IMG/VR virus record: IMGVR_UViG_3300010885_042160
Coordinates: 1 to 52,893 of that record
Source of the DNA: a virus
Direction: 5' to 3' (one strand)
Length of the DNA stretch: 52,893 nt
In this document: positions 6,434 through 45,000 of the stretch, piece by piece
How the letters are laid out: every line of letters starts with the position of its first letter
Position numbering within the stretch: position 1 is the first letter of the stretch
Translations under genes and position numbers: made by a program
The notes under the pieces: model-generated
The model's input: the letters and a program-made list of their open reading frames with translations, nothing else
Database searches by the model: none
Told to the model about the DNA's origin: nothing

Positions 6434-8323
6434 ATGTTAACTAACATTTTCGAGTCGCGTAACAAAACTTTCCTAAACCTAGTAAAACTGGGTGATTATC
6501 TCGGTAGATCACTGAGAGAGAGCGTAGAACTATTCTCAGTTGATGGGGATACGGTAATTTATCTCACGGAGTCAAAATACGTTATCCGTGGAAATTATAA
6601 GTCTGCCCCACTATCCTTAACTGAAATTGAAGTAGATTACGCTTCAATATTTGAGGATAAGAATATTTATAACAAGTTAGTTGATAAGAAGATATCAAGC
6701 TTATTGGCAGATTTGTTGGAGAATGATTTATCAGATGCCAAGAGCAGCTTCGATGGCGTCCTGGGTTTGTGGGAAAGCAAGCTACAGTTTGAGAAGGTTA
6801 ATAGAAGATTAACTGACAAGGCTCAGAGGTTTGATGAGTCATTCGACATACTCTCAACTCCTCAATTTGGTAGACTAGAGGAAATGAAGGGTGAATTAGT
6901 TAAAGCCCTGAAGGAAAACAAAAACCTTGCCTTGTCTCCAGAGATTAGAAGCACGGTAAGACTAGCTTCGGTAATTTCAAAGTCATTTGATCTACCAAGA
7001 ATTACAATCGAGCAATTAGCAGAGGATAGACAATATTCAATCCCTTCAACGCTAAACAGCACCCTCTACGATCATCTCTGCAAGCAAGAGATTATTGCTA
7101 AGGAACTGTTAGAGAGCAAGCAGAGCCTCGATACAATTTGGATTACAAACGAAAAGATTCAGAAGTTACCATCATACATCTATGAGTCTGATGATAATGT
7201 AATGCAGTTAGTAGCTGAGATAGTAAGCGAAGTTCCATACTTTGCCATGGCTACTAAGAAGCAAATCTCCTCACTGGTTGAGGGTAACCTGGATCTACTG
7301 GTAGACGATAGCAGAATACCAGATAAGGATATTAAAGGTTTTGTAGCTAAGATCTTCGAATTTAAGAAGCCAGTGAAGAATCACTTAACAAATCTTCTAA
7401 ATGAGAAGTATGGAATAAATGTCCAGACTCTTACTGCAACTCCTACGTTCGATTCATTAATCAAGACTCAATCTTTCATCTTTGAATGTCTAAGTCAGAT
7501 CGCTCCAAAGAACTCTAATATGAACAGAGTGCTTGTTGAGTTTGCTGAGATGCTCAAGGATAAGAATGGTATTGAATCAATCGACGTTTCTGATTTCTTA
7601 AATGAAGTTTTTGAGCTTTGCGAATACGATTCAAGCTTGAATGAGACTTCATTACTAAACTATCTTAACTTTGACAGAGTAGCCGATGACCTTGGCAAGA
7701 TCGGACAAGTATTAAAGATGATTCAGGCAGGCGTCGGTGGTGGTGATGCCGCTGGTGCCCTAGGTGCCGCTGCTCAATCCATGGGCCAAGAAGTCCCAGA
7801 GGGTGAGGGCGAGTATGAGTCAGATGGCGGCGAGCTTGCAGGCATGGGTGATGAAGATGGCGAAATGCAAGGCGGAGATGATGATATGGAGCCTGCCATG
7901 GACGCGGAAGATGCTGCTGCTGAAGTAAGTGCCGAAGAAGATATGGAAGGCGAAGAGGGCGACATGGAAATGGGCGAGGAAGGCGAAGAAATGGGAGATG
8001 AGATGGGCGAGGAAGGAGATGAGGAAGGTGAAGTAGAGTTCTCAGATAAGGATGATTTGATTGACAATCTAAAGGAACTTGAAGACCTAATTTCAACTTT
8101 GAAGTCTGATCTCGACATGGGAGATGACGGTGATATGGAAGGCATGGAAGGAGAAGAGGGAGAAGGTGAGGAAGGCGAAGAAGAAATGCCTGACATTGAC
8201 ACCGGGGAAGGTGAAGATGAAGTTCACATTGACGTAGATTCACACAATGATGGAGAAGAAGAGGAAGAAGATTCTGAGGAGGAAATGCCAAAGAAGAAGT
8301 CTAAGAAGCCAGAGATGGAGTGA
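6434..8323 (+). CDS. Large virion or prohead protein with a very acidic C-terminal tail (629 aa)
   Basis: Not confidently recognised. Residues 1-430 are a helical, soluble domain (MLTNIFESRNKTFLNLVKLG...), followed by a Gly/Ala linker (GVGGGDAAGALGAAAQSMGQ) and an extremely Glu/Asp/Gly/Met-rich tail at about 455-602, ending in a short basic patch (MPKKKSKKPEME). It directly follows the portal with AAGG eight bases before the ATG. In T4 the genes after portal encode acidic prohead-core proteins (gp67, gp68), so a core/scaffold or internal-head role is plausible, but the N-terminal domain is much larger than those. Alternatively a head-completion or ejected protein. Confidence 0.65.
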   Translation: MLTNIFESRNKTFLNLVKLGDYLGRSLRESVELFSVDGDTVIYLTESKYVIRGNYKSAPLSLTEIEVDYASIFEDKNIYNKLVDKKISSLLADLLENDLSDAKSSFDGVLGLWESKLQFEKVNRRLTDKAQRFDESFDILSTPQFGRLEEMKGELVKALKENKNLALSPEIRSTVRLASVISKSFDLPRITIEQLAEDRQYSIPSTLNSTLYDHLCKQEIIAKELLESKQSLDTIWITNEKIQKLPSYIYESDDNVMQLVAEIVSEVPYFAMATKKQISSLVEGNLDLLVDDSRIPDKDIKGFVAKIFEFKKPVKNHLTNLLNEKYGINVQTLTATPTFDSLIKTQSFIFECLSQIAPKNSNMNRVLVEFAEMLKDKNGIESIDVSDFLNEVFELCEYDSSLNETSLLNYLNFDRVADDLGKIGQVLKMIQAGVGGGDAAGALGAAAQSMGQEVPEGEGEYESDGGELAGMGDEDGEMQGGDDDMEPAMDAEDAAAEVSAEEDMEGEEGDMEMGEEGEEMGDEMGEEGDEEGEVEFSDKDDLIDNLKELEDLISTLKSDLDMGDDGDMEGMEGEEGEGEEGEEEMPDIDTGEGEDEVHIDVDSHNDGEEEEEDSEEEMPKKKSKKPEME

Positions 8324-8329
8324 TAAATT

Positions 8330-10312
8330 ATGACAACAGGACCTCGCCCAACCCCGCACCCAATAATTCTACATATAGACGATAACGGAAACCCTGTAAG
8401 GTTGGCCGAGGCTAGTGCAATTTATGTAGCCTCTGCTGTTATCGGAACATTAAGTGCAATTAACTATCAAGGGTTAGGGATCAACGGAGGGGCAGATGGC
8501 AACGAGGGGTCAGTTCAATTTAAATCCAATAATGGGTTTCGTGGCGAGGAAGGATTTACTTATAATAATGATACATTTACATTAAATGTTATTAATGTAA
8601 ATATTACAAATACTTTAAGTTCAATTAACTTTAGATCATCTGTGGTATCGTCCACAAATTCTAGCGCAGTAAATTTATATGCAACGACGATATCTGCCAC
8701 GACTGTATGTGCAACAAATTATAATGCAGCTTTAGAAGCTTTAAGTTTTCAAAATTTAGATAACAGATATTTAAACGCATCTGGGGATTCTGTAACTGGG
8801 AGCTTCTACTTACAAAATGTAAGTGCAGTTAATTTATCTGCCACAAATTATTTAAACATCCCCTCTACTTCCGCAATTTGGAATGCAAGCGCAATTAGAG
8901 GAATTCCAGTCACATCAACTCCTCCTTCCCTAGGGGAGTCTTTAGTATTTAAAGATGGATATTGGCAACCTTCAGCAGTAGGCGGCGGAGTAGGGGGCAC
9001 CCCAGGGGATCCAGCACTAAGTATACAATTTAAAAATGGATCATTCTTTAGCGGTGTAGAGTCAATAAAATACAATAGTTCTATAAATGGAATTCAATCA
9101 GTTACAATAAGTTCAACAAATTTAAGCTCTACAAATTTAAGCTCAACAACTTTACGCTCAGTTGGTGTGTGTGCAACGAATATTTCTGCAACTACTTATC
9201 AAAACTTACAAGAAGACACGCCTAAGTGGAATGCTAGTAAAATTTATGGAACTCCTTTTGATAAAAATGTCCTGTTACTGGACGATTTTATAACTTACAA
9301 TGGAGCAACAGCTTGGAAAAACACAACAAAAGCTGATGTAGCTAACCTCTTATATCCGCTTATACAGCCACAAATTCCTTCAGGATTAGCAACGTGGAAT
9401 GCAAGCGCAATTAGAGGAATAACTGTAACCGCAACTGCACCTTCTCTTAATAACGTATTAGTTTACAATGGATCAGTTTGGACTCCATCAAGTGCAATCT
9501 CGTTAGCAACAGTTTCGTCCACAAGATATCTAGGATTACCCTCTGGTGAGGCTACCTGGAATGCCAGTGCTATTAGAGGTGCTAATGTTTTAGCAGTTGA
9601 TGCGGGACTAACGACTGCAAATCCAATTGGCACACTTATCTACAATAAAACTAATAACGAATATTTAACTATTCCATTTAGCAGCACTATATTAAATGGA
9701 AGCAGAGATTTACTTGTCACACCTTACCAAGGACAGATAGTAGCATCTTATCTTGGGTCTGCCAGCGATTACTTCCAAATAAATCCAGTTTGGAAAACCT
9801 TCAATGATATTCCATCAAATAAAGATGTTTTAGTATTTAGTAGCAGCTTGTATGGCCTCCCAGGAGGAGGTTGGACTTGGGAGCAACCATCAGCTTTAGT
9901 TCCGCAAGTAACTCCTTTTGGCTCAACAGGTCAAATTCAATTTAAAGGTCCAAATGGACAATTTAGCTCTATTCCTGGCATACTATACGGAACAGATAAT
10001 AATTATTTAGGTGCTCCCAATATCTACATTCCAGATGGTGGAACAATTGACACCCCATTTATCTACTCCAGAGGTGGTGGATATGTAGGAGCAGCTATGT
10101 CTATGGTTTACGTATCTGCTGCAACTTATAATATCTTTGGAAAAGACACCAGTTCCGCAGGATCACCAACTCCAACCTCTAATAACCAGACAATAACTTA
10201 TGATTCAACAGGGCAAAAATGGAAGCCAGGATATGCAGTTTATCAAGCTACAGGAATTCCAAATAATAGTCAGGGTGTGAACGGTGACATATATTTTAGA
10301 TACATACCGTAG
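8330..10312 (+). CDS. Tail fibre / adhesin with repeated modules (660 aa)
   Basis: A Ser/Thr/Asn/Ala-rich fibrous protein. The N-terminus (DDNGNPVRLAEASAIY...LSAINYQGL) matches that of the gene at 13286 (NGVPIGLAETSSL...ISAIDYLGL), so it is probably the attachment domain. The body holds repeated SATN-type short strands and at least three copies of a WNASAIRG module (around residues 184, 358 and 410), and a C-terminal region with IVASYLGSASDYF and NKDVLVF shared with the 13286 protein. A stretch of 15-base tandem repeats lies at 9110-9154. Such strings of strand repeats form trimeric beta-structured fibres. Probable role: host binding. Six bases separate it from the preceding gene. Confidence 0.72.
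   Translation: MTTGPRPTPHPIILHIDDNGNPVRLAEASAIYVASAVIGTLSAINYQGLGINGGADGNEGSVQFKSNNGFRGEEGFTYNNDTFTLNVINVNITNTLSSINFRSSVVSSTNSSAVNLYATTISATTVCATNYNAALEALSFQNLDNRYLNASGDSVTGSFYLQNVSAVNLSATNYLNIPSTSAIWNASAIRGIPVTSTPPSLGESLVFKDGYWQPSAVGGGVGGTPGDPALSIQFKNGSFFSGVESIKYNSSINGIQSVTISSTNLSSTNLSSTTLRSVGVCATNISATTYQNLQEDTPKWNASKIYGTPFDKNVLLLDDFITYNGATAWKNTTKADVANLLYPLIQPQIPSGLATWNASAIRGITVTATAPSLNNVLVYNGSVWTPSSAISLATVSSTRYLGLPSGEATWNASAIRGANVLAVDAGLTTANPIGTLIYNKTNNEYLTIPFSSTILNGSRDLLVTPYQGQIVASYLGSASDYFQINPVWKTFNDIPSNKDVLVFSSSLYGLPGGGWTWEQPSALVPQVTPFGSTGQIQFKGPNGQFSSIPGILYGTDNNYLGAPNIYIPDGGTIDTPFIYSRGGGYVGAAMSMVYVSAATYNIFGKDTSSAGSPTPTSNNQTITYDSTGQKWKPGYAVYQATGIPNNSQGVNGDIYFRYIP
9110..9154 (+). repeat. 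Three tandem 15-base units inside the fibre gene
   Basis: Units at 9110-9124, 9125-9139 and 9140-9154 read AGTTCAACAAATTTA, AGCTCTACAAATTTA and AGCTCAACAACTTTA. Each encodes a five-residue unit such as SSTNL. In-frame units of this kind can expand or contract by slippage or recombination without breaking the reading frame. Confidence 0.7.
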
Positions 10313-10320
10313 TTTAGAAA

Positions 10321-13263
10321 ATGATTCAAATTTATCCTAATCCTTTCATCCAGAATCCTTTATTTCTTGGCACTGTTCCAATAAGAAATTCTCCAATATC
10401 TACTTACTCTCATGTAAGCTCTACTGCGTTTGAAGTTAGTGTTTACAATGATAATGCATCTCAATACAGTGCGGCATTTGTATACAAAGCTGGTGATCCT
10501 GATTCGTGGGCACCTTTCGAAAGTGCATGGACTGTTTATGGTAATGGAGTCACAGGAGTTCCTGAATATACATACAGCCTCTGGAGAGATAGAACTGAGG
10601 CTCAATTCAATTATTTAAATTACGGAACAGATAGCACAAGCAAAATAAGAGTAGGGTATAAAAAAGGAAATATAACTTCAGTTGATATTGGACCTTATAG
10701 AAAGAATTTTAATGCTAAATGGTCAACTATAAATTCAAGTGCGATAGAAATATTAGGAATTGATACATACGATAAATTAATTATTCACATAAATAATGAT
10801 TTATCAACCCCATTATATGTTTTTGCAAATCCAATAGATATCCCACCCCCAGTTCAAACCCTAGGAAATTTAACATCATGTTTCTATGTATCAGCAGGAA
10901 TATGGGAACTTAGTGCAATAACTACAGCATTAGGTGCTGGGTATTCTGACGGACCAGAATTCTCCTGGAGACTAAATATTCCATTTAGTAATTATATTGT
11001 ATACTTAGCACCTGGAGCGTATGTAGATGGGACATTCAGCGTAAGAGGTAAACACAATATAACTTTCTCAGGGCCAGGGGTCATAGACGCGGGTATACCT
11101 TATTATAATAGGTGGTGGTCAACAGTAGGGTTTGAATCATCATTTAATGATGTTGACAAATTACAAAGAAGTCCAATATATTCATTCAGTAGTTTTAGCG
11201 AGCCTAATACTTATGTAGATCCATCTGCAATAAAATTAATTGGTCCAACAATAGTAAATTCTATTATTTACGCTGGAACTTGCAATTTTAAATTAGTAGA
11301 CAATACAAAATTAATATGCCAATGGCCCAATACTGATGGATTCCATATAAAAGATAATTGGAGCCCCGATGCAAATAAGTATGCAAGTATGACAAGATCA
11401 TTTTTGCAAACAGCGGACGATACAACTTATGTTGGTGGAAATCAAGGAGGGGGTGACTGCTTACTAAGTGGATGTTACTTTGTGACATTAGCTGGGTGCT
11501 GCTTCAGAACTTTCTTTGGTGATTATAATTATAATAGTTATCGTAATCAGTATGATCATTGGTTCTCCGCAATTGATATGGATTGCAGAATTTATTCAGC
11601 ACCCTCCTACAACTATATTAGTGTTCCTTTACAAGGAAGTTTTACAAACGCTGTGTTTGGAATTTCTCCTACCGATAGAAAAAGATTTTGGAAAGCATAT
11701 TATAATGACTTCAGTTCAATAGCCGTAACAAATCATATATTTTCTGGAATTAGAGTAGAAAATCTTATTGACTTGCCAGTATTTGATGTTGGCCCAAGGC
11801 CATACCCTTACTATGATTACAGCCCTATTTTTGGTGAGTTATCAGGAATAATATTTAAAGATATTACAGTTAGTTCTCACCCAAATAGTAAATTTAATTA
11901 TATTAGAGATAATAAAGTATTTGGAAAAGATGGAAGAGAACGGCAATACAGGGCGCATGATGTATCTTTTATTAATGTAACTATAAATAATCAAACCATT
12001 ACTAATGTAAATAAGGATGATTATTTTGTGTGGTATAACAAACCAATTCCTAGGGACTATGCACCCACAGTTCCTGCGTATGCGGGAAGTTCTATTGCTG
12101 ATGTTTATGTAATAATCGGAGATTCAATCGCAGCAGGATATGACTCTAAATTTGCAGATAGGGTAAATACTAATTACTCTACAATGCCCACAGAGCTAAC
12201 TGGGTGTTATATTTTTGCTCCATCTTCAAATACTTTTGAAATAATAAAACCTGGAGTAAATGTTCACGCTGGAAACTACTATGGAGGTTATTACGTAACC
12301 GGAGTCGCATCATTAGAGAGCACTCTTGCCTGGAAGATGCGACAAAATTCAGGACAAAGAGACGTATACATTATAAAATATGCAGATGGTGGAACTATGC
12401 CAGTCTCAGGGACATCAGCCACATATGACTCCCAGAGTGAACCTCCACAAGTTTCAAACTTTAATCGACTTGATTGGAGCGTTAGCAGTTCAGATGAAAT
12501 GTTCGCTAGGTTTAATACTTTTGCAACTAGTGCTATATTGAATTTAAGTTCTGCTTATAAACATGTTGATTTGAAAGCAGTAATAATTTTCTTGGGAACT
12601 AATGTTCCAATTCAAACTGCTGAGAGATTATATAACCGAAATAGCGTAACTGCAACTCTTGGGGTTACATCCGTAAATCCTTACAAAGATTTAAATTTAA
12701 TTAATTCTTTAATTGATACGGGGGTAAGCTCTTTAATCTCTGGGGTAGGTGGAATACTTGGCACCAATAGGCTAGACGTTGATCTAAACTATACAAATTA
12801 TATTTGGGCTTTACCTTTATACGAAGATGAAGGGTTCTATGTTGAGTTGTTAAATGATTATTTAAAGAAATTTAACAACAAAGTAAGATCATTCTCCAGT
12901 ATAGAAGAAAGGTTATATACCACAAGTGCATTATCATCTACATTAGTCCCGCTAAGGATCACTCCTTATTTGCCTCCAACAGGAGTTGATATTTATCTTG
13001 TAGATGGAGTTCACTATAACTTCTCAGGATACGCTAAGATAACTGATGAGATTTACCAAATATTGCAACAACAAACTAGCAGCACCACAGATCCAGATTT
13101 AAATCCAGATGTAAATATAACATTTAGAGTTTCTGAGACTGCGACCACGCCTTACATAAAAGTAAATGATACCTGGAAACAAGCTGACCCCTATGTTAAA
13201 GTTAATGGGCAATGGAAGTTTGCTGATCCAGGGGTTAAGATTAGCGGGGATTGGAAGCAGTAG
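10321..13263 (+). CDS. Bifunctional tailspike: GH28/GH49-like beta-helix plus SGNH esterase (980 aa)
   Basis: Two enzyme-like parts can be seen. Residues about 1-180 form a beta-rich leading domain ending VFANPID, and 190-560 a right-handed beta-helix with VYLAPGAYVDGTF and ITFSGPGVIDAG, as in dextranases/isopullulanases (GH49) and polygalacturonases (GH28). Candidate catalytic acids are D339 (NTDG) and D366-D367 (TADDTTYV). Residues about 590-910 are an SGNH hydrolase: IIGDSIAAG with nucleophile S602, FLGTN (G759, N761), and DGVH with D895 and H898. The C-terminus carries three short repeats of the type YVKVNGQWK, common in phage virion proteins. It lies between two related fibre genes. Inferred job: cutting and deacylating a host surface polysaccharide. 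The true substrate is not readable. Confidence 0.75.
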   Translation: MIQIYPNPFIQNPLFLGTVPIRNSPISTYSHVSSTAFEVSVYNDNASQYSAAFVYKAGDPDSWAPFESAWTVYGNGVTGVPEYTYSLWRDRTEAQFNYLNYGTDSTSKIRVGYKKGNITSVDIGPYRKNFNAKWSTINSSAIEILGIDTYDKLIIHINNDLSTPLYVFANPIDIPPPVQTLGNLTSCFYVSAGIWELSAITTALGAGYSDGPEFSWRLNIPFSNYIVYLAPGAYVDGTFSVRGKHNITFSGPGVIDAGIPYYNRWWSTVGFESSFNDVDKLQRSPIYSFSSFSEPNTYVDPSAIKLIGPTIVNSIIYAGTCNFKLVDNTKLICQWPNTDGFHIKDNWSPDANKYASMTRSFLQTADDTTYVGGNQGGGDCLLSGCYFVTLAGCCFRTFFGDYNYNSYRNQYDHWFSAIDMDCRIYSAPSYNYISVPLQGSFTNAVFGISPTDRKRFWKAYYNDFSSIAVTNHIFSGIRVENLIDLPVFDVGPRPYPYYDYSPIFGELSGIIFKDITVSSHPNSKFNYIRDNKVFGKDGRERQYRAHDVSFINVTINNQTITNVNKDDYFVWYNKPIPRDYAPTVPAYAGSSIADVYVIIGDSIAAGYDSKFADRVNTNYSTMPTELTGCYIFAPSSNTFEIIKPGVNVHAGNYYGGYYVTGVASLESTLAWKMRQNSGQRDVYIIKYADGGTMPVSGTSATYDSQSEPPQVSNFNRLDWSVSSSDEMFARFNTFATSAILNLSSAYKHVDLKAVIIFLGTNVPIQTAERLYNRNSVTATLGVTSVNPYKDLNLINSLIDTGVSSLISGVGGILGTNRLDVDLNYTNYIWALPLYEDEGFYVELLNDYLKKFNNKVRSFSSIEERLYTTSALSSTLVPLRITPYLPPTGVDIYLVDGVHYNFSGYAKITDEIYQILQQQTSSTTDPDLNPDVNITFRVSETATTPYIKVNDTWKQADPYVKVNGQWKFADPGVKISGDWKQ

Positions 13264-13285: not shown

Positions 13286-16045
13286 ATGGTTGATTTTGGA
13301 CAATATCCATTGGTTTATCAGTTACAAAACGGAGTCCCAATAGGGCTCGCGGAGACTAGTTCATTATCAGCAGTTAATTTAGTTGTAAGCAGTATAAGTG
13401 CAATTGATTATTTAGGTTTAACATCTACTTTTCAATTTACTGGAGTTGTTAGCGTAGGGGATGCTACTTCCATCGGAAATTCTTTAGTAGATAACACTAA
13501 TTATAATAATCCCAAAATAAGGCCGATAGCAGTAACCTTAAACGATTTTATGTCGGTGACAACCCCCGACAACTCTATAACTATTGGTTATGGATCTACA
13601 CCTTTAGCAATAGCTAAAGGTGGAACTGCGGCAGATAATGTTACTCAGGCTCAAATTAATTTGAGCTTGGAACCTAATGTAGATGTTCAAGTATATAATG
13701 CAAATTTAACTCAATTATCTAATTTAACTCTTACAGCTAATAAAATTTTAGTTGGTGGGGCTGGAACTCTTACAGACATAACTGCACCAACAAATAATAC
13801 ATTTTTAAAATATTCAGGTGGATCATTTATTTGGACGGGAGTTGATCCAGGTGGATCAAATTCATTTCCAACCCCAGGTGGAAGAATTCCAGTAACTAAC
13901 AGCACTACTGTTCTTGATACCTTTTCCGACTTAACCTACACTAGTAATGTATTAAAATCCCCAGCGGTATGTGCGGCTGACGTTTGTGCTGCCACGTTTA
14001 ATGAAGGTGGAACTTTACTATCCACCAAATATCAAGGAAAAGATGATACTTTAACTACCATAGCATCTTTAAATCCAGGGGCTAATGAATTAATTTACTT
14101 TACAAATACTAATGCTGCTACTACAACTTCGCTGACTGAGCAAGGTAGAAATTTATTAGACGATACAACTTTTGCTGCAATGAGAACTACTTTGCAGCTT
14201 TCAGCCCTAGCTACAAAGTCTCAAGTTAATCTAGCATCAGTGGAGGTAACAAATACTCTTCCGATTACTAATGGTGGAACTGCAAAAATATCATTTAATC
14301 CTGATCAACTTATATTTAGTAATGATTTTTCTCAAGATTCAACATTAACATTTAACAAAACTACTAAGTTGTTAAATGCCTCAAGCTTTTCTGCTACAAA
14401 TGTAAGTGCAAATACTATTTACGAGGGTGGTCAGAGTTTAGTTAGTAAATATCAGCCTGTAGGTTCTTACCTTACTTCAATACCTTCAGAGTATTTAACA
14501 CAAGCTGAAGGTGATGTTCTTTACCAGCCGGGTGATGTGTTTTTAACAACGCTAGCTACCCAGGATACTGTAAATTTAGCCACTGCGCAAGTATGCGGAA
14601 CTCTACCGACTAACAGGGGTGGAACTAATAAAACTTCATTTAATGCTAATCGAATAATTTACGGTGAATTTGACCAGAATGCTAATTTGACGTTTGACGG
14701 AACTACAATATTCAAATCTCCCACTGTATGCGCTACTACAGTTTGTGGAGCAGATTTGTTTGAAAATGGTGTCAACATTACAACTAAGTATGAGACACAA
14801 ACAAACGCTACAAATACTTATTTAACTAAATCAACTTATAATATATTTACTGGAACTTTAGCACTGTCAGCGGGATTGAAAGATGTAGATTTAACGACTC
14901 CACCAACCAATAATCAAGTATTAAAATGGAATGACACTGCTAAAAGATGGAAAGCAGCAGATGATAGCACTGGAGTTGGTGGTGGAACTCCTGGTGGAAA
15001 TAGCACTAATGTTCAAATAAATTTTGAGGGCAATTTCTCGGGTAATGCTGGATTAACTTATAATTTAGATACTAGCACGCTTAGAGCACAGTTCTATTCA
15101 AACCTTCCCTCGGGCGACCCAATATGGAATGCTAGACAGTTATCAGGCATCCCTTTAGTATCTGGAATATTAAACCCGACACCTCAGGATGGGGACGTTC
15201 TAACGTATCTAGTCTCTCCAGGCGTCCCAACAACTGGATGGTATTACGCTCAACCTGGAGGCTCCACGGCTGGGGGAAATGATACCCAAATACAATTTAA
15301 TAATGGTGGAGCTTTCTCAGGATCGCCAGCGTTAGTTTGGCAAAATTCCACAAGCTCATTAATATCAAAGCAATTAAGTGCAACCACAGTATCCGCAGGC
15401 ACCATTCACGTAGGCGGGTCTGATGGGTATATCAGAAACAATAATGGTAGCATTGGCATAAGCTCTATTGGAGGTTCCGTTTCAATCAGTGGAACCAATT
15501 CAGTATCTTTACAAGGAATTGCTATAAATAACTCAGTATGGCCCGAAGCTGGAACTGGACCTGGAATTATATTTTATGATAATTCCAGTCAAAAACTTTT
15601 GAATGTAAGAACTAACAGCACTGCCGTAAATGGAACTAGGAATTTTACTGCAAATACTCAAGGATATATTGTAGCTTCATATCTAACGTCAGCGAGTGAT
15701 GATTATTTTGGGTTGAATCCTGTGTGGAATTACACGGTAATTACCCCAGGAAATGTTGTCGATTTACCTTCAAACAAAGATGTTTTAACTTATAATAACA
15801 ATATCTATAATTTGGGGGGGGCTGTAAAAGGTTGGACATGGGAGCAGCTAAGTTTAAGTGGTGGATATTTATCAGATGTAGCAACCACAACTCCTCAAGT
15901 AAATGATGTCCTCGTTCGCAATGGAACTAATTGGGCCCCATCATCTTCAATAAATTTAACTTCAGTTAGTGCTACTAACTATTATAATCTTGGACCTAGT
16001 ATAATAGGTTTAAGTAATGCAATAACAAATGGATTATTTTTCTAA
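13286..16045 (+). CDS. Tail fibre with GGT-type repeats (919 aa)
   Basis: A long fibre related to the gene at 8330: same N-terminal motif (NGVPIGLAE...SAIDYLGL) and same C-terminal modules (GTRNF/IVASYLTSASDDYF/PSNKDVLTY/GWTWEQ). The middle contains classic phage tail-fibre repeats: AKGGTAADNVTQAQINLSLE, then three LPxxxGGT-KxSF units (for example ITNGGTAKISF and TNRGGTNKTSF) each followed by a strand ending in SKYQ or TKYE. The collar-like repeats and the Asn/Thr/Ser content indicate a trimeric fibre. It lacks any visible enzyme domain. It probably forms a receptor-binding fibre alternative or additional to the 8330 product. Starts 22 bases after the tailspike gene. Confidence 0.75.
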   Translation: MVDFGQYPLVYQLQNGVPIGLAETSSLSAVNLVVSSISAIDYLGLTSTFQFTGVVSVGDATSIGNSLVDNTNYNNPKIRPIAVTLNDFMSVTTPDNSITIGYGSTPLAIAKGGTAADNVTQAQINLSLEPNVDVQVYNANLTQLSNLTLTANKILVGGAGTLTDITAPTNNTFLKYSGGSFIWTGVDPGGSNSFPTPGGRIPVTNSTTVLDTFSDLTYTSNVLKSPAVCAADVCAATFNEGGTLLSTKYQGKDDTLTTIASLNPGANELIYFTNTNAATTTSLTEQGRNLLDDTTFAAMRTTLQLSALATKSQVNLASVEVTNTLPITNGGTAKISFNPDQLIFSNDFSQDSTLTFNKTTKLLNASSFSATNVSANTIYEGGQSLVSKYQPVGSYLTSIPSEYLTQAEGDVLYQPGDVFLTTLATQDTVNLATAQVCGTLPTNRGGTNKTSFNANRIIYGEFDQNANLTFDGTTIFKSPTVCATTVCGADLFENGVNITTKYETQTNATNTYLTKSTYNIFTGTLALSAGLKDVDLTTPPTNNQVLKWNDTAKRWKAADDSTGVGGGTPGGNSTNVQINFEGNFSGNAGLTYNLDTSTLRAQFYSNLPSGDPIWNARQLSGIPLVSGILNPTPQDGDVLTYLVSPGVPTTGWYYAQPGGSTAGGNDTQIQFNNGGAFSGSPALVWQNSTSSLISKQLSATTVSAGTIHVGGSDGYIRNNNGSIGISSIGGSVSISGTNSVSLQGIAINNSVWPEAGTGPGIIFYDNSSQKLLNVRTNSTAVNGTRNFTANTQGYIVASYLTSASDDYFGLNPVWNYTVITPGNVVDLPSNKDVLTYNNNIYNLGGAVKGWTWEQLSLSGGYLSDVATTTPQVNDVLVRNGTNWAPSSSINLTSVSATNYYNLGPSIIGLSNAITNGLFF

Positions 16046-16054
16046 GGAATTATC

Positions 16055-16510
16055 ATGCCAGCAAATACAAGTCCTATTTTTACAAACGTGCCAGATATAA
16101 CATGGCCTGCTGCTGTAAACGGAACGGTCACAGTTTCAGCAGTAAATACCGGAACAGGAACTACATCTTATGACGGAACCACTAACGCTACATTAGTTTA
16201 TGTTGCTGGATCTAATGGATCATTTATTCAAAAATTGGTATGTGAAGCAGGAGGATCCACTGGAACGGCATCAGTATTAAGAATTCATATTAACAACGGC
16301 ACATCACCCACTAACGCTAGTGCTAATGCATTGTATATGCAATATTCTTTGCCCTTAGTGAATGGCACGGCGGCTGCGGCTACACCTCACATAGAAATTC
16401 CATTAATGTTGCAGCTACCACCAACATATAGAATTTATGTATCTTTAGGATCCACTGCAAATCTTACTCCTGCTGGATGGTTTGTAACTGCTGTTGCTGG
16501 TGATTATTAA
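16055..16510 (+). CDS. Small virion protein, conserved in environmental phages (151 aa)
   Basis: An Ala/Thr/Gly/Asn-rich beta-sandwich-like protein (FTNVPDITWPAAVNGTVTVS...LRIHINNGT...YRIYVSLGS...GWFVTAVAGDY) of a kind I recognise from aquatic phage structural regions, next to fibre genes. No enzyme motif. Likely a capsid or fibre decoration, or a cap on one of the neighbouring fibres. AGG lies in AGGAATTATC just before the ATG. Its TAA overlaps the next ATG as TAATG. Confidence 0.6.
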   Translation: MPANTSPIFTNVPDITWPAAVNGTVTVSAVNTGTGTTSYDGTTNATLVYVAGSNGSFIQKLVCEAGGSTGTASVLRIHINNGTSPTNASANALYMQYSLPLVNGTAAAATPHIEIPLMLQLPPTYRIYVSLGSTANLTPAGWFVTAVAGDY

Positions 16511-17526
16511 TGGCATATCAAAATTACGCTTCTATTGCAAACGCTAATCAACTTACTCAAGTATATGTTGGTGAAGTTTCCACTAGTGCTACAACCTCAT
16601 GGAATTATAATGTTTGGCAAAAGCCTAAAGGCGTAAAATCAGTTATAATTTTAACTCAAGGGGGTGGGGGTGGTGGAGGTGGTGGTGCTTGGGCAGCAAA
16701 TGCAAATACTATTGGAGGTGCTGGCGGAGGCGGAGGAGCTTTGATTAGAACAATAATACCAGCAATTCTATTACCAGATATTTTATACGTTAAACCTGGA
16801 CAGGGTGGAACTGGTGGCGTGGGTAACGGAAATGGAAGCACTGGAACTGCTGCTACAGCGGGAGGAGCAAGTTATGTAACCATAAATGCATTGTCAGCTA
16901 CTGTGCCTACTGCTGTTGATATTGTATGTCTTGCTAACGGTGGAGGTGCAGGAGCAAACGGGAGTATTACAGGTGGAACTCTTGGCGCGGTGAGCACTGG
17001 TTCCACTAGCCCACTAGCTTACTTAGGGTTTGCACTTCCTGTCGCGGGGATAGCTGGTGGCGGAGGTGGAAACGGAGCAGCAGGAACAACAATAACCGCA
17101 ATTGCTAGCACTAGCAATAATATTGCTTGCGGAGGGGCTGGTGGAGGAGGAGCGGGTGCTGCTGCTGGATTTACCGGGGGTGCCATAACTACAGGTGGAA
17201 CTTGGCCTACCGTAACAGCAGGAGCATTAGGAACAAATGCTAATGGAAGCAACGGAGTAGAGGGTATAAATTATGGAATTAATATATTTAATAATATTGA
17301 TATAATAAATAGTAGATATCCTTTATTATTTACTGGTGGTAGTGGGGGAGGTGGATCTGGTAACTCTACAAGCACTTTTAATGGTGGAAATGGTGGTTCT
17401 GGAGGATTAGGGTGCGGAGGTGGGGGAGGAGGATCAAGATCGACTGCCTCTGGAGGAACAACTGGATTTGGTGGAAATGGTGGTGCAGGCGGCCCTGGAT
17501 TTGTCATTATAATTAGTAACTTTTAA
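16510..17526 (+). CDS. Polyglycine-rich adhesin, paralogue 1 (338 aa)
   Basis: After a short N-terminal domain ending WQKPKGVKSVIILTQ come long Gly runs (about residues 53-78) and further Gly-rich blocks at about 105-125, 140-160, 175-235 and 275-330, with a hydrophobic ending FVIIISNF. The PKGVK segment followed by Gly clusters and LLPDILYVKPGQGG is the type of glycine-rich domain seen in phage fibre-tip proteins (for example gp38-like adhesins whose tips form polyglycine-II sandwiches). It is nearly a sibling of the next gene. Inferred role: variable receptor-binding tip. The run of G-rich codons makes this the most G-skewed part of the window. Confidence 0.7.
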   Translation: MAYQNYASIANANQLTQVYVGEVSTSATTSWNYNVWQKPKGVKSVIILTQGGGGGGGGGAWAANANTIGGAGGGGGALIRTIIPAILLPDILYVKPGQGGTGGVGNGNGSTGTAATAGGASYVTINALSATVPTAVDIVCLANGGGAGANGSITGGTLGAVSTGSTSPLAYLGFALPVAGIAGGGGGNGAAGTTITAIASTSNNIACGGAGGGGAGAAAGFTGGAITTGGTWPTVTAGALGTNANGSNGVEGINYGINIFNNIDIINSRYPLLFTGGSGGGGSGNSTSTFNGGNGGSGGLGCGGGGGGSRSTASGGTTGFGGNGGAGGPGFVIIISNF

Positions 17527-17527
17527 A

Positions 17528-18499
17528 ATGGTATTACAAAATTATCAAGGAATCTGCTGCTTTGGGGCCGATAGAACAACTAGAATTTATACTGGATTTC
17601 CTGGGGCAGCAACAATCGCAACTGCATTTTATACTTGGCAAAAACCTAAAGGAGTTAAAAATATATTTATTTTAGCTCTCGGTGGAGGCGGTGGCATCGG
17701 TGGAGGAAATGCGGGGGATAACACTGCTAATAGAATAGGCGGGGGTGGGGGAGGGGCAGGAGCTTTGACTGTAGCAAGTATCCCAGCCGCATTACTCCCA
17801 GATATATTATATGTTCAACCTGGGAATGGCGGTCCTGGCGGCACAGGAAATGGTAACGGGACTAACGGTGCGGCTAGTTATGTATTATTCTATCCAGACA
17901 GTGCATACACTGCAAGCAATAGAGTGGTTCTTGCAAACGGGGGCTCTCTAGGAACCGCTGCGGGTGCCGCTGGAGGTGGTGGTGCTGCATCTACTGGGGC
18001 GACAAGTCCAATATCTTTTTTAGGTATATGTGCATCCTACGCAGGGGGAGGTGGTGCAGCAGGATCAACAGGAGCAGCAGGGGGAAATTCAACTGCTATA
18101 GCCACTGGAGCAGCTTCCCACTGTATGGCATGTGGGGGTGCAGCAGGAGGTGGGAAAAGCACAACAACAGCATTCGCGGGCGGAACTGTGAACACTGGGG
18201 GAATGTGGCAAACTGTATGGGGGAGCATAGCTGGCGGGGCTGCTGGATTGCCAGGAACTAACGGGATAAATTACGGTAATAATTTTATAAATAACTATGA
18301 AAGTATAAGTAATTTTCTTCCTTTAGTATCCTCAGGGGGGTCCGGTGGGGGAGCAGCTACCGCTGGTTCGGCAGGGGCTGGGGCTGACGGAGGCTTTGGT
18401 AGTGGGGGAGGTGGGGGAGGTTCTGGCACTACCGCAATAGGTTCTGGTGCTGGGGGAAGCGGAGGCGCAGGCGTAATAATTATTACATGCGAGTTCTAG
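17528..18499 (+). CDS. Polyglycine-rich adhesin, paralogue 2 (323 aa)
   Basis: Shares its order with the gene before it: WQKPKGVKNIFILALGGGGG, IGGGGGGAGAL, LLPDILYVQPGNGGPGGTGN, and a C-terminal Gly-rich block ending VIIITCEF. Between shared blocks the sequences differ, with more Ala and Ser here, as expected for duplicated receptor-binding tips that have diverged. It is preceded by one base after the stop of its sibling, and its last four bases overlap the stop of the minus-strand gene at 18496. No chaperone gene of the gp38/Tfa type follows it. Confidence 0.7.
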   Translation: MVLQNYQGICCFGADRTTRIYTGFPGAATIATAFYTWQKPKGVKNIFILALGGGGGIGGGNAGDNTANRIGGGGGGAGALTVASIPAALLPDILYVQPGNGGPGGTGNGNGTNGAASYVLFYPDSAYTASNRVVLANGGSLGTAAGAAGGGGAASTGATSPISFLGICASYAGGGGAAGSTGAAGGNSTAIATGAASHCMACGGAAGGGKSTTTAFAGGTVNTGGMWQTVWGSIAGGAAGLPGTNGINYGNNFINNYESISNFLPLVSSGGSGGGAATAGSAGAGADGGFGSGGGGGGSGTTAIGSGAGGSGGAGVIIITCEF

Positions 18500-18717
18500 A
18501 GCATATCCCCACGTTTCATACTAGCCAACAACCTAATCGTAACATTATCCCGAAGCATGTGGACTTCTTGAAATACGTTAGTTAGCGTATCATAAGTATC
18601 CTTGCTAATCTTGGTATCCTTAATACTGTTAATCTGTGCAGCTAATGCTTCAAGCTTCATCTTCTGTGATTCAGTAAAGTTGTAAAGGCTGTCTAATACG
18701 TCTTCGGCTCTCTTCAT
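18496..18717 (-). CDS. Small helical protein beside the helicase, position of uvsW.1 (73 aa)
   Basis: An almost entirely helical, charged protein (MKRAEDVLDSLYNFTESQKM...) with start overlapping the helicase stop as ATGA. T4 has a small uvsW.1 gene of similar size directly after uvsW; position and length agree, but I cannot confirm homology from sequence alone. It probably works with the helicase. Its stop region overlaps the end of the adhesin gene on the other strand by four bases. Confidence 0.55.
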   Translation of the reverse strand: MKRAEDVLDSLYNFTESQKMKLEALAAQINSIKDTKISKDTYDTLTNVFQEVHMLRDNVTIRLLASMKRGDML

Positions 18718-20087
18718 AGTTTTATCCGAGAGACTTCATGTCCCTCGTCCTCATAGTGTCTAATTCTGGCTTTTGAATGCTCCCTCAAGTAAGGGATGTG
18801 ATCAAAGAAATCATATACCATCACAGAGGTTTTTCCAACAGATTTTCTCATTCCTCTGCCTAGACCCTGTAAAGTTGGGATCTTATCTTTCAAACCTCTA
18901 GCGTTAACTAGGTGGGTGATCTCTTCAATGTTAATGCCAGTCTGCAATACTTTAGTTCCGATTAGGAAGGCTGCACTATCACATTCAAGGAAATCTTTAA
19001 TCGCCTGCTTACGTTCGTGAATGGTATTGATGCCTTCTAGCGTGAATGAATTAGGTATGGCATTCCTCAGCGTCTGAAGATGCTCAAGATTCTTGACGAG
19101 AATACAAACTTTAGCTTCTGGATTGGCTTCAGCAATCTTTGCAGCCAAACTGAAAATGATTCCGTTTCTCTTTTCGGAGGTGATAATAAACTTCTCGTAG
19201 ATAGTAGCGTAATCGCTGTCCAAATCCTGCTCTGATATCTCATCCTCATACTCCAACATCTGTATTATGGGCTTCGCCAGCTTGTCCTCAGCGATTAGCT
19301 CCTGAGTTGATTTAGTCTCTATGACGTCACCAAAGGCCCCTACAAGCGTCAATTCCCCGATCCGGTCATCTGGCATGGTGGCTGTGAATCCGAAGCGGTA
19401 GCGGGCATTGGGGAAGCTCTGGATGGCTGCAACGGTCATCTCCCCCCGGCAGAACTTGTGAACTTCGTCTACCATCAACACTTCTGATTGGTTTAGATGA
19501 CTGTCTAGGATCTTATCAATACTCTGCACAGTTGAGAGCATGATACGCCCATCTTTGAAGTCTCCACCTAAGTTTATTCCAACATCCTTGAATCCGCACT
19601 TGCGCGTGAGGTATTCATATGTCTGAGTTAGAATGCTTCTCTCATCAAACAGGATTGTAATCTTAGCCTTTGGGAAAGCAGTTAGGGTTGCTGCCATAAT
19701 TAAAGTTTTACCTGATCCCGTAGGTGACTTGATTATGGCTCTCTCAGCGACCAGTGCGTTGCTGATAGCTTCTTGCTGATAATCATGGAGCTTGAACTCC
19801 TTGATATTGCGTTTGAAAATTAGCTTAGGACCATCTCCATGCTCTCTAATGACTTCTGGGGTGCATCCGACTTGATTTAAGTCCCGTAGGATGTTTGCCA
19901 GCATCCCCGTCTTGAACTTTCCAGCAGCCGATACGAACCGCTTCTTCCCGTCCCAGTGCCCCCTCTTGTAGGTGGGCGTGTATTGGTAGCCATTCACATG
20001 GAACGCCCACTTATCAGATAAAACTTTTATAATATTTGAGTTATCTGTTTCTATTATCGAGTCTATAATGCCTGATCTAATTTTCAT
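18714..20087 (-). CDS. uvsW: UvsW-like superfamily 2 DNA helicase (457 aa)
   Basis: An ATP-dependent DNA helicase acting on branched recombination and replication intermediates. The N-terminal part (about 1-95, YTPTYKRGHWDGKKRF) resembles the small DNA-binding domain of UvsW. Then come the Q-motif-like LHDYQQEAISNAL, Walker A SPTGSGKT (121-128), DEVH (207-210), TAT motif III (235-237) and the C-terminal lobe with VLQTGINIEEI and QGLGRGMRK (motif VI). It is shorter than T4 UvsW (587). Transcribed opposite to its structural-gene neighbours, diverging from the gp26-like gene over a 30-base gap. Confidence 0.88.
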   Translation of the reverse strand: MKIRSGIIDSIIETDNSNIIKVLSDKWAFHVNGYQYTPTYKRGHWDGKKRFVSAAGKFKTGMLANILRDLNQVGCTPEVIREHGDGPKLIFKRNIKEFKLHDYQQEAISNALVAERAIIKSPTGSGKTLIMAATLTAFPKAKITILFDERSILTQTYEYLTRKCGFKDVGINLGGDFKDGRIMLSTVQSIDKILDSHLNQSEVLMVDEVHKFCRGEMTVAAIQSFPNARYRFGFTATMPDDRIGELTLVGAFGDVIETKSTQELIAEDKLAKPIIQMLEYEDEISEQDLDSDYATIYEKFIITSEKRNGIIFSLAAKIAEANPEAKVCILVKNLEHLQTLRNAIPNSFTLEGINTIHERKQAIKDFLECDSAAFLIGTKVLQTGINIEEITHLVNARGLKDKIPTLQGLGRGMRKSVGKTSVMVYDFFDHIPYLREHSKARIRHYEDEGHEVSRIKL

Positions 20088-21965: not shown

Positions 21966-22905
21966 TATCCCATTCGTTGAGATTAAATACTTGATAATTT
22001 TTACAGGCATAATGGACAGCATCAACATCTTGGCAGTAAGCCTCATTCCAATCCTTGAACCTCTTGGGTGGCAGAGTGTAGTGAATCTTTGGCATGCGGT
22101 TTCTGCGTCTAAAGATCTCAAAGTTACGCAAGCCCTTTAGCCCAGCCGCGTCACTGTCGTAAGCCACTACGATTGGTCCCTTGTAAAACTTGAGTTGTCC
22201 AATCTGCTCCTTAGATACATGGCAGGATATCGTGGTGGTTGCATTGTAGCCAAGAGCCTTAATGGACATTGCATCGAATACGCCTTCACAAATATAGAGG
22301 GGCTCTTCTGATTCATAATTGAATGGATACAGGATTGCGGATGCCTTCACTCCACGGAAGTTCAAATACTTTGGCTCCTGGTCGGCGTATAAGGCCCGTG
22401 CTTGGAAGAAAATGGTGCGACCCTCATGCAGGTAGGGGATGACCAATCGGCCCATGTAGGGGCCCGTATGCGCGTAGTAGAATGGTCCCTGATTGAGGAC
22501 GCCTCTTCGAACCAGGGTCATCGCTGCCAAAGAGTTAAGCTCCACATCAAAGCTGAATGCGTCAACCTTAGAGAAGTTCTTAAACTCGTCTTCAATTAAA
22601 ACTTTAACTGGCTCTTGCTTTGGCTCTTCTTTTTCCTCGGCAAAGAACTCGTCTATTAAAAACTTAGAGTAGGCTTGTTTATACGTCAGGTGCTCCAACT
22701 CTGAGTATAACTGGATGAAGTTACCTTTCTTCTGGGACTTAAAGCACTGCCAAAGTCCGGTGTCTAAATTAATAGACATGTGCCGCTTGGGGTCACGATC
22801 CATAAATATTGAAGGGATGACCATCTCGCGTCCGCCACTTAATATTCTGTATTTACCGTTGAACTTTTCCAGCAGGTAGGCTCTAATGTAATTTGAGGTA
22901 ATCAT
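21931..22905 (-). CDS. DNA primase, Toprim type with degenerate zinc domain (324 aa)
   Basis: It makes RNA primers for lagging-strand synthesis in the gp61/DnaG way. The Toprim fold is clear: ICEGVFDAMS with Glu207 and the VAYDSDAAG motif with Asp250 and Asp252. The N-terminal region (HMSINLDTGLWQCFKSQKKGNFIQ) aligns in pattern with the CHC2 zinc domain (strand, W-x-CF-x-C, K-K-GN-I), but only C54 remains. The usual CPxH pair and the second CxxC Cys are missing, so zinc binding is probably lost. T4 gp61 is 342 aa, so the length is normal. Its ATG shares bases with the ATG of the nuclease gene on the other strand. Confidence 0.82.
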   Translation of the reverse strand: MITSNYIRAYLLEKFNGKYRILSGGREMVIPSIFMDRDPKRHMSINLDTGLWQCFKSQKKGNFIQLYSELEHLTYKQAYSKFLIDEFFAEEKEEPKQEPVKVLIEDEFKNFSKVDAFSFDVELNSLAAMTLVRRGVLNQGPFYYAHTGPYMGRLVIPYLHEGRTIFFQARALYADQEPKYLNFRGVKASAILYPFNYESEEPLYICEGVFDAMSIKALGYNATTTISCHVSKEQIGQLKFYKGPIVVAYDSDAAGLKGLRNFEIFRRRNRMPKIHYTLPPKRFKDWNEAYCQDVDAVHYACKNYQVFNLNEWDTMTALDTSGLI

Positions 22906-22906
22906 G
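22903..22906. other. Divergent start codons overlapping in CATG
   Basis: CATG supplies CAT (22903-22905, the primase start on the minus strand) and ATG (22904-22906, the nuclease start on the plus strand). The nuclease ribosome site GAGG (22894-22897) lies inside primase codons. Any promoter for either gene must lie in the other gene. Confidence 0.8.
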
Positions 22907-23704
22907 TTTATCGACCGACTAAGTAATTCAAAATCCGATATTATAGATCAGTGTCTACTCAAGTATGAGTATAGATATATCAGGAAGCTCCCAGGGTTTC
23001 CATCAAAAAACGAGGACGCTTTGGACTTCGGAACATATATTCACCGTATCTTTGAGTTAGGCTACACCGAGAATCATATCTCGCAACTAGAGAAAATTGC
23101 AGAAAACATTAAAAAAGACTACAAGGTTCCATTTGTATACAAAGAACGCATCCACCAATGCCTCGATAACTTTTTAAAGTTTAACAAGGGGCTGGGGGAA
23201 ACCGTAGCTGTCGAACACGAATTTTCCGTGAATCTCGCGGAAGGTATTAAATACAACGGGTTTATAGACCGTATCGTGCGAGGACTCAACGGGGGCATGC
23301 TAATTATTGACTACAAGACTTCCAAGAAGGAAAAGTCCAGAGTCGAGCTTGGCAGGGATAAGCAGCTTATGGGCTACGCTTTTGCCGTCAGCCAAGAGTT
23401 TAAAATTCCACTGAGTGAGATCTACTGCGCTCACTACTACCCTTTAACCGATAGTTTAGTATCAGTTAAGTTCACGCAAGGGGCAGTTAACTCCTGGAGA
23501 GAGAAGGAAATCTCCAAGGTCTGGAAGATCCGTAAGAAGAAGAAGGACGAATTCCCAGCTATGCAGAACCAGTTCTGTGACTGGTGTGAGTATAAGCCAA
23601 TGTGCCCGCTGTTTAACGACCAGTGCTCAATTCAGCAGAGGATCGAGGAGCAGACGGCTCAACTCAAGGCTAAAGAAGAAACCTTGCCTAAAACTAGCGG
23701 ATGA
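22904..23704 (+). CDS. Cas4/RecB-like nuclease with probable Fe-S cluster (266 aa)
   Basis: A PD-(D/E)xK nuclease: opening RLSNSKSDIIDQCLLKYEYR with Cys17, GTYIHRIFE (His47), FIDRI (Asp122), IIDYKTSK (Asp136, Lys138), then a Q-rich helix motif. Three further cysteines, FCDWCEYKPMC (225, 228, 234), complete the Cys-one-plus-three pattern that binds a 4Fe-4S cluster in Cas4 and AddB-type enzymes. Such phage enzymes process DNA ends in recombination or help break down host DNA. There is no CRISPR locus near, so this is not an adaptation gene here. It overlaps the minus gene at 23659 by 46 bases at the end. Confidence 0.85.
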   Translation: MFIDRLSNSKSDIIDQCLLKYEYRYIRKLPGFPSKNEDALDFGTYIHRIFELGYTENHISQLEKIAENIKKDYKVPFVYKERIHQCLDNFLKFNKGLGETVAVEHEFSVNLAEGIKYNGFIDRIVRGLNGGMLIIDYKTSKKEKSRVELGRDKQLMGYAFAVSQEFKIPLSEIYCAHYYPLTDSLVSVKFTQGAVNSWREKEISKVWKIRKKKKDEFPAMQNQFCDWCEYKPMCPLFNDQCSIQQRIEEQTAQLKAKEETLPKTSG

Positions 23705-42043: not shown

Positions 42044-45000
42044 ATGTTCATTAAAAGCGATATTTACACAACTTCTGGCTCAGTAAAACTTTATCATTGT
42101 TGGACAGATAAAGTTACAAAGTTCGATCCAAGTTCATTCTACAACTGGGAGCAAGACAATCTCCCTGTTCATGACTTGGAAGAGAGAACATTTTATCTTT
42201 GGGAGCAGTTAGGATATCCAACTTCTTCTATCCCAGGAGTTGTGTTGGCTGTTTCAGCGGATGCGTCTGATGCCAATTTTGCATGCAATAAAAATATATT
42301 TAGATCAGTTAGTTCCGCTGTCCAAGCACTTCCACAAGTAATAAATTATCCAATAATTATTGAGGTAGCTAACTTCGGACAACTTGGAGATTTAACTTTA
42401 AATAATTTTAAATTTGGTCCAAAAGGATCTTTAGAAATTATAAATAGAAATTTCTCTAAACAAGATTATGCGGTATCTAACTCAACTGGTATGTCAACAC
42501 CCCAGTTGAGCGCAAACTATATTGCTGGGTATCCTCAAAATTATGTTTCTTCATTCTCATACGTAGGGGGGACTTCACCAACTAACCCAGAGATCACCCC
42601 CCACTACGGATTTATACAGGCTAGCTGTTTATCTATATCAAGCCCAGTCTTTAGCTCTACATACGACGCAAGATTTTCTGGCATCACTGGAAATCCAAAA
42701 CTTAACGCATATATTTCGGTCTGGAAAGTATCAACAAACTACAATAAGTCTACGTTAGTTATTGATGATAATAACAATATAAATCCATTTGCAATCGCAA
42801 ACACTCACTCGCTTTCTTTTAGACCTTACGCGACAAACTCAAATCCGTCAGATGATATTTACAATAAAGATGCAAGCACAATAGATTATTTAACAAATGA
42901 AACATTGTATGGAACAAACTCTACAATCTTAAATTCTAATAGAGCTTACAATGGTCTTTATTATGGTAATAAGCTATCAAAAATTGTAATTAATAACTGT
43001 GATGGTCCTATCTTTATAAGAAATTTCTTCCTAGACGGACAAGGCAACAGCCTTGTTAGCAACAATTATGGTATAGAAGTAAATGGATCAAATAATGTAT
43101 ACTTAGAAAATGTAGTATCAACAAGATACCGAAAAGCTGGATTATACTTTAATAATTCAACTGTAAACATTTTAAGATCTTGTGTTGCCAATAGAATTTA
43201 TGATTATGATGCAGATGGAAATAGACTAACTGGCAACTATTCAAACAGAAGATTAGCTACAAGATACAACGATATTAGTGGATATCTATACCAGGATTAT
43301 GCCGCAGGTATAGTTGCTAACAACTCTACAATAAATTTATCGTCTACAAGAACTTGGCAGCTAGATGCATATCAAACTGTTTTAGGCTCAACATACAAGC
43401 CTTTACCTCTAGCTTACACAATATTAGAATTTAATGAAAACTCTAACGGCATCATACTTAATAACTCTCAGTTAATTGGCGGAGATTCTGTTAGACCACA
43501 CTCCCAACCTGAGCCACAATTAATTAATAGGTATGTTGATCCTAGCTCCAGCAACTATGTAGGACAAACGATACTTGATTTAAACTCAAACACCAACTGT
43601 GGAATTTTAGCTACTAATTCAAAAATATCTTTAAACGGAAAATTAAGATTAATAGAAAATCTAAAGGGTGCAGAAATAAATTCTTCTCAGCTTGAGATAG
43701 AACAATTAGAATGTTTGAGAAATCAAAAGATTGGTGTCGAATTAAATAATTCAGTTGGAATATACAATAAGAATTTAAAGAAATTCCATTCCTCTGGAAC
43801 ATATATTGACACGATAGGTGGTTATCCATTCTGGTTTGAAAAGAATGGAGTTCACTTATACTTAAATAACAGTAATTTTAAACCAGTTGTAACCTCTTCT
43901 ATGGAGCAACGGTATGCTAATATGATTTTTGCTAGTTCTTTAATTAGCAATTTATCTTCAATACAGGAATCAATTAGCGTTAATAATAATTCAGAACTAG
44001 TTCTGGTATCTCCAAAAATATCTAGAAGTAATTCTCAAGTTATAGAAGACAGAGGTAAGAAGGGGTCCGAAATAAGTTGTAATCAAAATTCAAAAACAAC
44101 GCTTAGAGGAACTAAGTATTACCCAATACGTGTGAACGGACCTACCACGGCAGATCTCCAGAGAAGGTTAGCAGCTATTTGTGCTAACAAAAATTCTACT
44201 GTTGATATAAATGGTCCTGCAATTATTGCACAATTTGGAGTTGATCTTTTAGCTGACTCAAACTCAACAATAAGTATAACTTCTCCAAAGAACGAGCTTG
44301 ATGGGTCGTTGGACTTTAGTTCAATAAGCTTATCAGACCCAGCTAACCATACCATGGTTGAACTTCATAGTTCAAGATCTTGCATAGTGGCTGATAACAA
44401 CTCAACCATTAATATGAAAGATTTGGGAAGTTACAGAACCAGATGGGACATGACTGGGGTGTTTAACAGCTACGTCCCAGACTATGGTGGAATAGTTGAT
44501 GATGTGTTTAACAGCACTTATGTCAGCGGAGGATCATTACAATTCTATCCTAACCCAAACAGCAATACCCCAAACTCGGCTGCCAATATATCTACGTTAC
44601 TTGCGACAGACAAGACCTTTGTAAAATATCCTCAAGGGTATGGGGCATTGATAAGTCTGCAAACCCCTGTAAATGATTTTAGTTCTGTTACTTTTGGTGG
44701 AATGTGTGTAAGAGCACTAAATGGAAGTTTAGTTAATGTTAATAATGTTAACTTCCCTTGTGGTTGGTGGAATCCATCAGCCGCATTCTACTCAGATGAT
44801 GTAGCTTTTAGCGGAGGTGGTATATGCAATAGAACCTTCATATGGAATGTTGCAGACACATCACAGTTAAAATCTTCATTCCTATCTGTTAGCGGACTAT
44901 TCCCAAGATTAGCTGGGTATGTTGGGCCTTACGGGTATTGGGCTTCGGGCTCTGGGAACAGGGCTGCGTCGGGACTTCCATCCTCTACACCTGATACTGG

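Follow-up and report, generated by a model that had tools for sequence, protein, structure and literature searches.

Can a single phage protein both cut the backbone of a host polysaccharide and strip acyl groups from it? The question is raised by an open reading frame (ORF) in IMG/VR virus record IMGVR_UViG_3300010885_042160 (positions 1 to 52,893; this whole stretch of 52,893 bases is the window analysed here), which a sequence-only reading had interpreted as a tailspike uniting a β-helix glycosidase with an SGNH esterase. The 980-aa ORF is real and under purifying selection (Table 1). Its relatives were found on only three other IMG/VR contigs (100%, 92% and 80% identity), and dN/dS was 0.09–0.13 for the whole ORF and 0.08–0.13 for the helix and SGNH parts, low values in both parts indicating that both halves are maintained. 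Each proposed catalytic residue lay exactly where the sequence-only reading had put it, with D339 in WPNTDGF, D366/D367 in TADDTTY, S602 in GDSIAAG, and D895 and H898 in DGVH; N761 lies in GTN. Searches with the whole protein against Pfam, NCBIfam and PDB sequences gave no enzyme match. Weak PDB sequence matches to Dark/Apaf-1 and a tRNA methyltransferase were dismissed as chance, and a full-length AlphaFold model built from three close sequences was discarded (pLDDT 25).

Table 1 Features of the two-enzyme ORF and its neighbours, with positions in the window.
Feature	Position	Strand	Basis
Two-enzyme protein, 980 aa	10321..13263	+	ORF with ATG start; relatives; dN/dS about 0.1
N-terminal β-sandwich module, residues ~50–175	10468..10845	+	Profile alignment from residue 104; 39-row and GH49 alignments; model β-strands
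Right-handed β-helix, GH49/GH28-like, residues ~185–562	10873..12006	+	Profile, alignment, model, fold search
D339, aligned with Dex49A (1OGM) D376	11335..11337	+	Merged alignment
D366 and D367, aligned with Dex49A D395 and D396	11416..11421	+	Merged alignment
SGNH/GDSL hydrolase-like domain, residues ~596–911	12106..13053	+	PF00657 match; hhalign against GDSL proteins
S602, candidate SGNH nucleophile (GDSIAAG)	12124..12126	+	Motif; invariant
N761, candidate block III Asn (GTN)	12601..12603	+	Motif; invariant
D895 to H898, candidate block V (DGVH)	13003..13014	+	Invariant D/H; block V aligned with GDSL
Three VKVxGxWK repeats, C-terminal tail module, residues 939–979	13135..13257	+	phrog_6977; Arthrobacter phage proteins
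Flanking tail-fibre-like protein, variable	8330..10312	+	47–50% identity only to L002/L003 counterparts
Flanking tail fibre protein, variable	13286..16045	+	PHROG tail fibre matches; 41–42% identity to counterparts

The first ~560 residues comprise an N-terminal β-sandwich and a right-handed β-helix. A weak plasmid match to a Bacteroides protein annotated as GH28 (E=0.4, used as a lead only) pointed to homologues at 40 genome loci (L006–L045), mostly from Bacteroidota and with Bacillota also represented, whose proteins consist of an N-terminal sandwich and a helix. A profile of the phage proteins matched the profile of this group over 354 columns (residues 104–562, E=1.4e-10), and the group profile matched GH49 end to end (341 columns, E=2.2e-18), the GH49 sequence letters being those in the alignments from the PDB search; direct hhalign comparison of phage and GH49 aligned 40 columns only (E=4.7e-6). 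An AlphaFold model of residues 1–592, made from the 39-row alignment, was of medium confidence (pTM 0.69, mean pLDDT 58.5), with residues 1–50 low. Its seven best PDB fold matches were all GH49 chains (E 8e-10 to 1.4e-7), followed by GH87 and GH28 at about 6e-4, with TM-scores of only 0.42–0.49 by query length. The GH49 matches are not circular, because the alignment behind the model contained no GH49 sequence. In this medium-confidence model and in the fold search, the phage protein has the GH49 order of a β-sandwich followed by a right-handed β-helix. The sandwich, which the sequence-only reading had not described, is present in GH49 and absent from classical GH28. The claim of a GH28/GH49-like β-helix with three aspartates finds support in the profile, alignment and fold-search results, which favour the GH49 side; among known enzymes, the barrel resembles dextranases from fungi and bacteria.

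In the bacterial group, PF00295, the Pfam profile of GH28, scored above cut-off in three of the four proteins scanned, and the same family has the GH49-type N-terminal sandwich and end-to-end homology to GH49, so that it apparently bridges GH28 and GH49. One Bacteroidota member with extra C-terminal length (L030) was considered as an SGNH fusion and dismissed, the extra length being a second β-helix with a GH120-type insertion domain.

In the merged alignment, phage D339, G340, D366 and D367 fall on Dex49A D376, G377, D395 and D396, and all four are invariant in 39 of 39 aligned sequences. The GH49 catalytic triad is D376/D395/D396 in Dex49A, according to PMC6723167. Beside the GH49 enzymes (Dex49A 1OGM, isopullulanase 1WMR/3WWG, AoDex 6NZS), the phage protein has the same sandwich-and-helix architecture, the Asp triad in TDG and DD, the motif VYLAPGAYVxG and its best fold matches; it differs in having only 17–19% identity to them in the merged alignment and in its binding site, where most Trp/Tyr residues are absent (W267, W425, Y463, W568 and W571 are not kept). 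Half of the GH49-conserved residues (7/14), the triad included, are retained. The bacterial proteins are homologous to residues 104–562 and have the same triad, but they are 20–25% identical to the phage protein, are mostly stand-alone enzymes of ~480 aa, and carry a histidine in IGxHG that aligns with phage RTFFG (F399). The NTD and DD motifs of GH28 are present (NTDG at 337–340, DD at 366–367), and the GHG histidine of its catalytic site is not. T338 and VYLAPGAYVxG are common to phage and GH49 and not to the bacterial group. PF00295 had no match in the 980-aa protein, though some bacterial relatives match it, and no Pfam match placed the protein in GH49 either. In a tree, the phage helix formed its own deep and very long branch, apart from GH49 and from the bacterial group, and its placement is unsure. 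Judged by sequence, the β-helix is a formal member of neither GH49 nor GH28. The 980-aa protein as a whole probably acts in the manner of a GH49-type glycosidase fused to an SGNH esterase.

The same residues bear on an alternative that we consider unlikely, in which the helix would bind polysaccharide while being catalytically weak or dead, and the SGNH esterase alone would act, giving recognition and deacetylation as in spikes of the Escherichia coli phage G7C gp63.1 type. Loss of most GH49 substrate-binding aromatics, loss of the GH28 histidine and the great length of the branch that separates it from every known enzyme would fit such a helix, and PMC13123978 describes SGNH spikes that deacetylate without depolymerising. 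The strict retention of the three catalytic aspartates and of the T-D-G motif argues against it.

By gene content, the window is a fragment of a contractile-tailed T4-like phage (myovirus), encoding a terminase, a portal, baseplate hub and wedge proteins and a head maturation protease. The 980-aa gene lies in the tail module, flanked by two tail-fibre-like genes. Identity to the counterparts in L002 and L003 is 41–50% for the flanking fibres, compared with 80–92% for the 980-aa protein and 89–94% for the portal; on this pattern the enzyme behaves as a tool that the phages share, and the fibres as variable host-range parts. The C-terminal VKVxGxWK repeats, another feature beyond the sequence-only reading, match a minor tail protein family (phrog_6977, E=1.8e-6) and are common to minor tail proteins of Arthrobacter phages (actinophages).

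The word tailspike holds for this protein as far as the position of its gene in the tail module. The trimeric, receptor-specific sense of the term did not fare as well: the N-terminus showed no recognisable domain of a known kind for anchoring in the virion (residues 1–50 of the model being of low confidence), the relatives of the helix are probably enzymes of a single domain that are secreted, and the protein varies less than the fibres beside it. The β-helix tailspike depolymerases of P22 and HK620, which are trimers with N-terminal anchors, also cleave polysaccharide with a right-handed β-helix; their fold similarity to the phage model is weak (E 0.018 or worse). An enzyme that acts outside the virion, secreted or produced at lysis to free progeny from host slime, seems improbable. 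The apparent secretion of the nearest helix relatives (Bacteroidota proteins with hydrophobic N-termini by eye), the lack of a recognised anchor and a conservation unlike that of the fibres speak for it, but the gene sits between tail fibre genes, its repeats are common to minor tail proteins and its N-terminus, by eye, is not signal-peptide-like.

For the C-terminal half, PF00657 matched the isolated segment across profile positions 1–208 of 208 (E=1.8e-4), with a score of 22.2 bits that falls 1.4 bits short of the Pfam cut-off of 23.6; against the L003 homologue the value was 0.025. Comparison with 14 bacterial GDSL proteins by hhalign gave E=0.0018, better than each of 40 column shuffles and a reversed control, and covers block V only. 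None of S602, N761, D895 and H898 varies among the phage relatives, and the four stand in the expected SGNH order: the block I serine lies in GDS and block V has the DxxH form, L003 having DSVH with the D and H kept. For the block II glycine, G690 and G691 are candidates only. A kinship with SASA (PF03629), hinted at by KYADGGT, was dismissed, its comparison failing to exceed the reversed and the shuffled controls. A search, run without a positive control, of 296 genomes from the phylum to which G002 belongs (the genome carrying the Chitinophaga locus L010) turned up no close bacterial source of the SGNH part, and tblastn against plasmids gave none. The assignment as an SGNH hydrolase draws on sequence and is probable, with a score under the Pfam cut-off and a structure that the full-length model did not confirm. 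Least probable of all is that the β-helix is the sole enzyme and the C-terminal half a non-catalytic SGNH-like or unrelated domain for attachment or folding: the sub-threshold match, the absence of a SASA relationship and of a predicted structure, and the failure to find relatives beyond these phages (phage records, plasmids, 296 genomes) would suit it, but none of the four candidate residues varies, their order is the expected one, the PF00657 match spans the entire profile and dN/dS reaches the same low level as in the helix.

The core of the sequence-only reading is largely supported, and its interpretation as a whole in part. We favour, with a probability of roughly 0.6, a virion-associated protein of a T4-like myovirus tail cluster, in which a helix homologous to GH49/GH28 and a probable SGNH esterase would open host polysaccharide. 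This explanation is supported by the helix homology, the GH49 fold matches, the invariant triad, the PF00657 and GDSL matches, purifying selection, the tail-gene position, the C-terminal repeats and the activity of SGNH proteins elsewhere. Counting against it are the lack of whole-protein Pfam or NCBIfam matches, the SGNH score under the cut-off, the medium confidence of the helix model, the loss of half of the GH49-conserved residues and an N-terminus in which no anchor was recognised. In such a protein, the β-helix would hydrolyse main-chain bonds of a polysaccharide on the host surface, presumably with inversion and with the Asp triad serving as acid and base by analogy with GH49 and GH28. 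The SGNH domain would remove O-acyl groups from the same polymer through Ser-His-Asp, and deacylation before chain cleavage is plausible. Together, the two enzymes would open a path to the cell, with the variable neighbouring fibres supplying host specificity. We infer that both enzymes are active. A more specific and tentative proposal is that the β-helix founds a third lineage, next to GH49 and to the 'GH28' proteins that have the sandwich, with a substrate of its own, and that it acts in cis with the SGNH domain to deacylate and then cut an acylated host polysaccharide.

Phage depolymerases serve as a source of tools for attacking capsules and biofilms; most of those described are either trimers of the pectate-lyase-like kind or SGNH esterases carried by separate proteins. 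Each half of the present protein is a known kind of enzyme; joining a GH49-type barrel to an esterase would give phage carbohydrate enzymes a new scaffold, and would make it possible to test directly whether one chain couples deacylation to cleavage. SGNH receptor-binding proteins (E. coli G7C gp63.1, Acinetobacter Aristophanes gp41 and Klebsiella prophage fibres) likewise have an SGNH esterase in a tail-region protein, but in the sections of PMC13123978 and PMC11058221 consulted the esterase belongs to proteins that have no β-helix, and no GH49-like β-helix is reported. The same sections describe SGNH receptor-binding proteins of other phages (PMC13123978) and Aristophanes gp41 (as reported in PMC11058221) as active esterases, and the Klebsiella study lists six SGNH predictors without a parallel β-helix and, as a separate group, six helix predictors (PMC13123978). 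An earlier helix-plus-SGNH fusion may exist in the tailspike literature.

The suggestion that GH49-like domains are uncommon in phages held up in searches. With the phage helix, the phage SGNH part and AoDex (GH49) as queries, tblastn found no match in 50,697 phage records, a search that distant relatives can escape; a Chitinophaga relative as query gave one weak match only among phages. A degenerate VYLAPGAYVxG pattern, which distant relatives can likewise escape, found only the three sister contigs among 2.9 million IMG/VR contigs, and a structural search of BFVD gave no convincing match. Six more viral contigs retrieved with a looser VYLAPGA DNA pattern were all unrelated. Lactobacillus phages EV3 and phiPYB5 also carry 'dextranase' genes; these lie between morphogenesis and lysis genes according to PMC4234937, and no phage record searched had a GH49 sequence match. 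This type of glycosidase appears to be almost absent from known phages.

Several further observations concern the neighbourhood. The two flanking fibre-like proteins have repeat units in common, WNASAIRGIPVTSTAPS...LVYNGSVWTPSS and LSATNLSATT, and diverge rapidly between sister phages; the downstream one is 919 aa here and >1500 aa in L002/L003. Two glycine-rich tail proteins (PF21722) that are paralogues of each other are encoded side by side at 16510–17526 and 17528–18499, and a single L003 gene matches the pair. Within the tail and baseplate cluster lie a helicase gene for DNA, in reverse orientation (18714–20087, −), and a PD-(D/E)XK nuclease gene (22904–23704, +). A 1154-aa protein rich in N/S repeats and without a Pfam match (42044–45508) resembles another β-helix. 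Adjoining the portal is a 629-aa protein (6434–8323) whose C-terminal third is extremely acidic, with runs of E/D/G/M.
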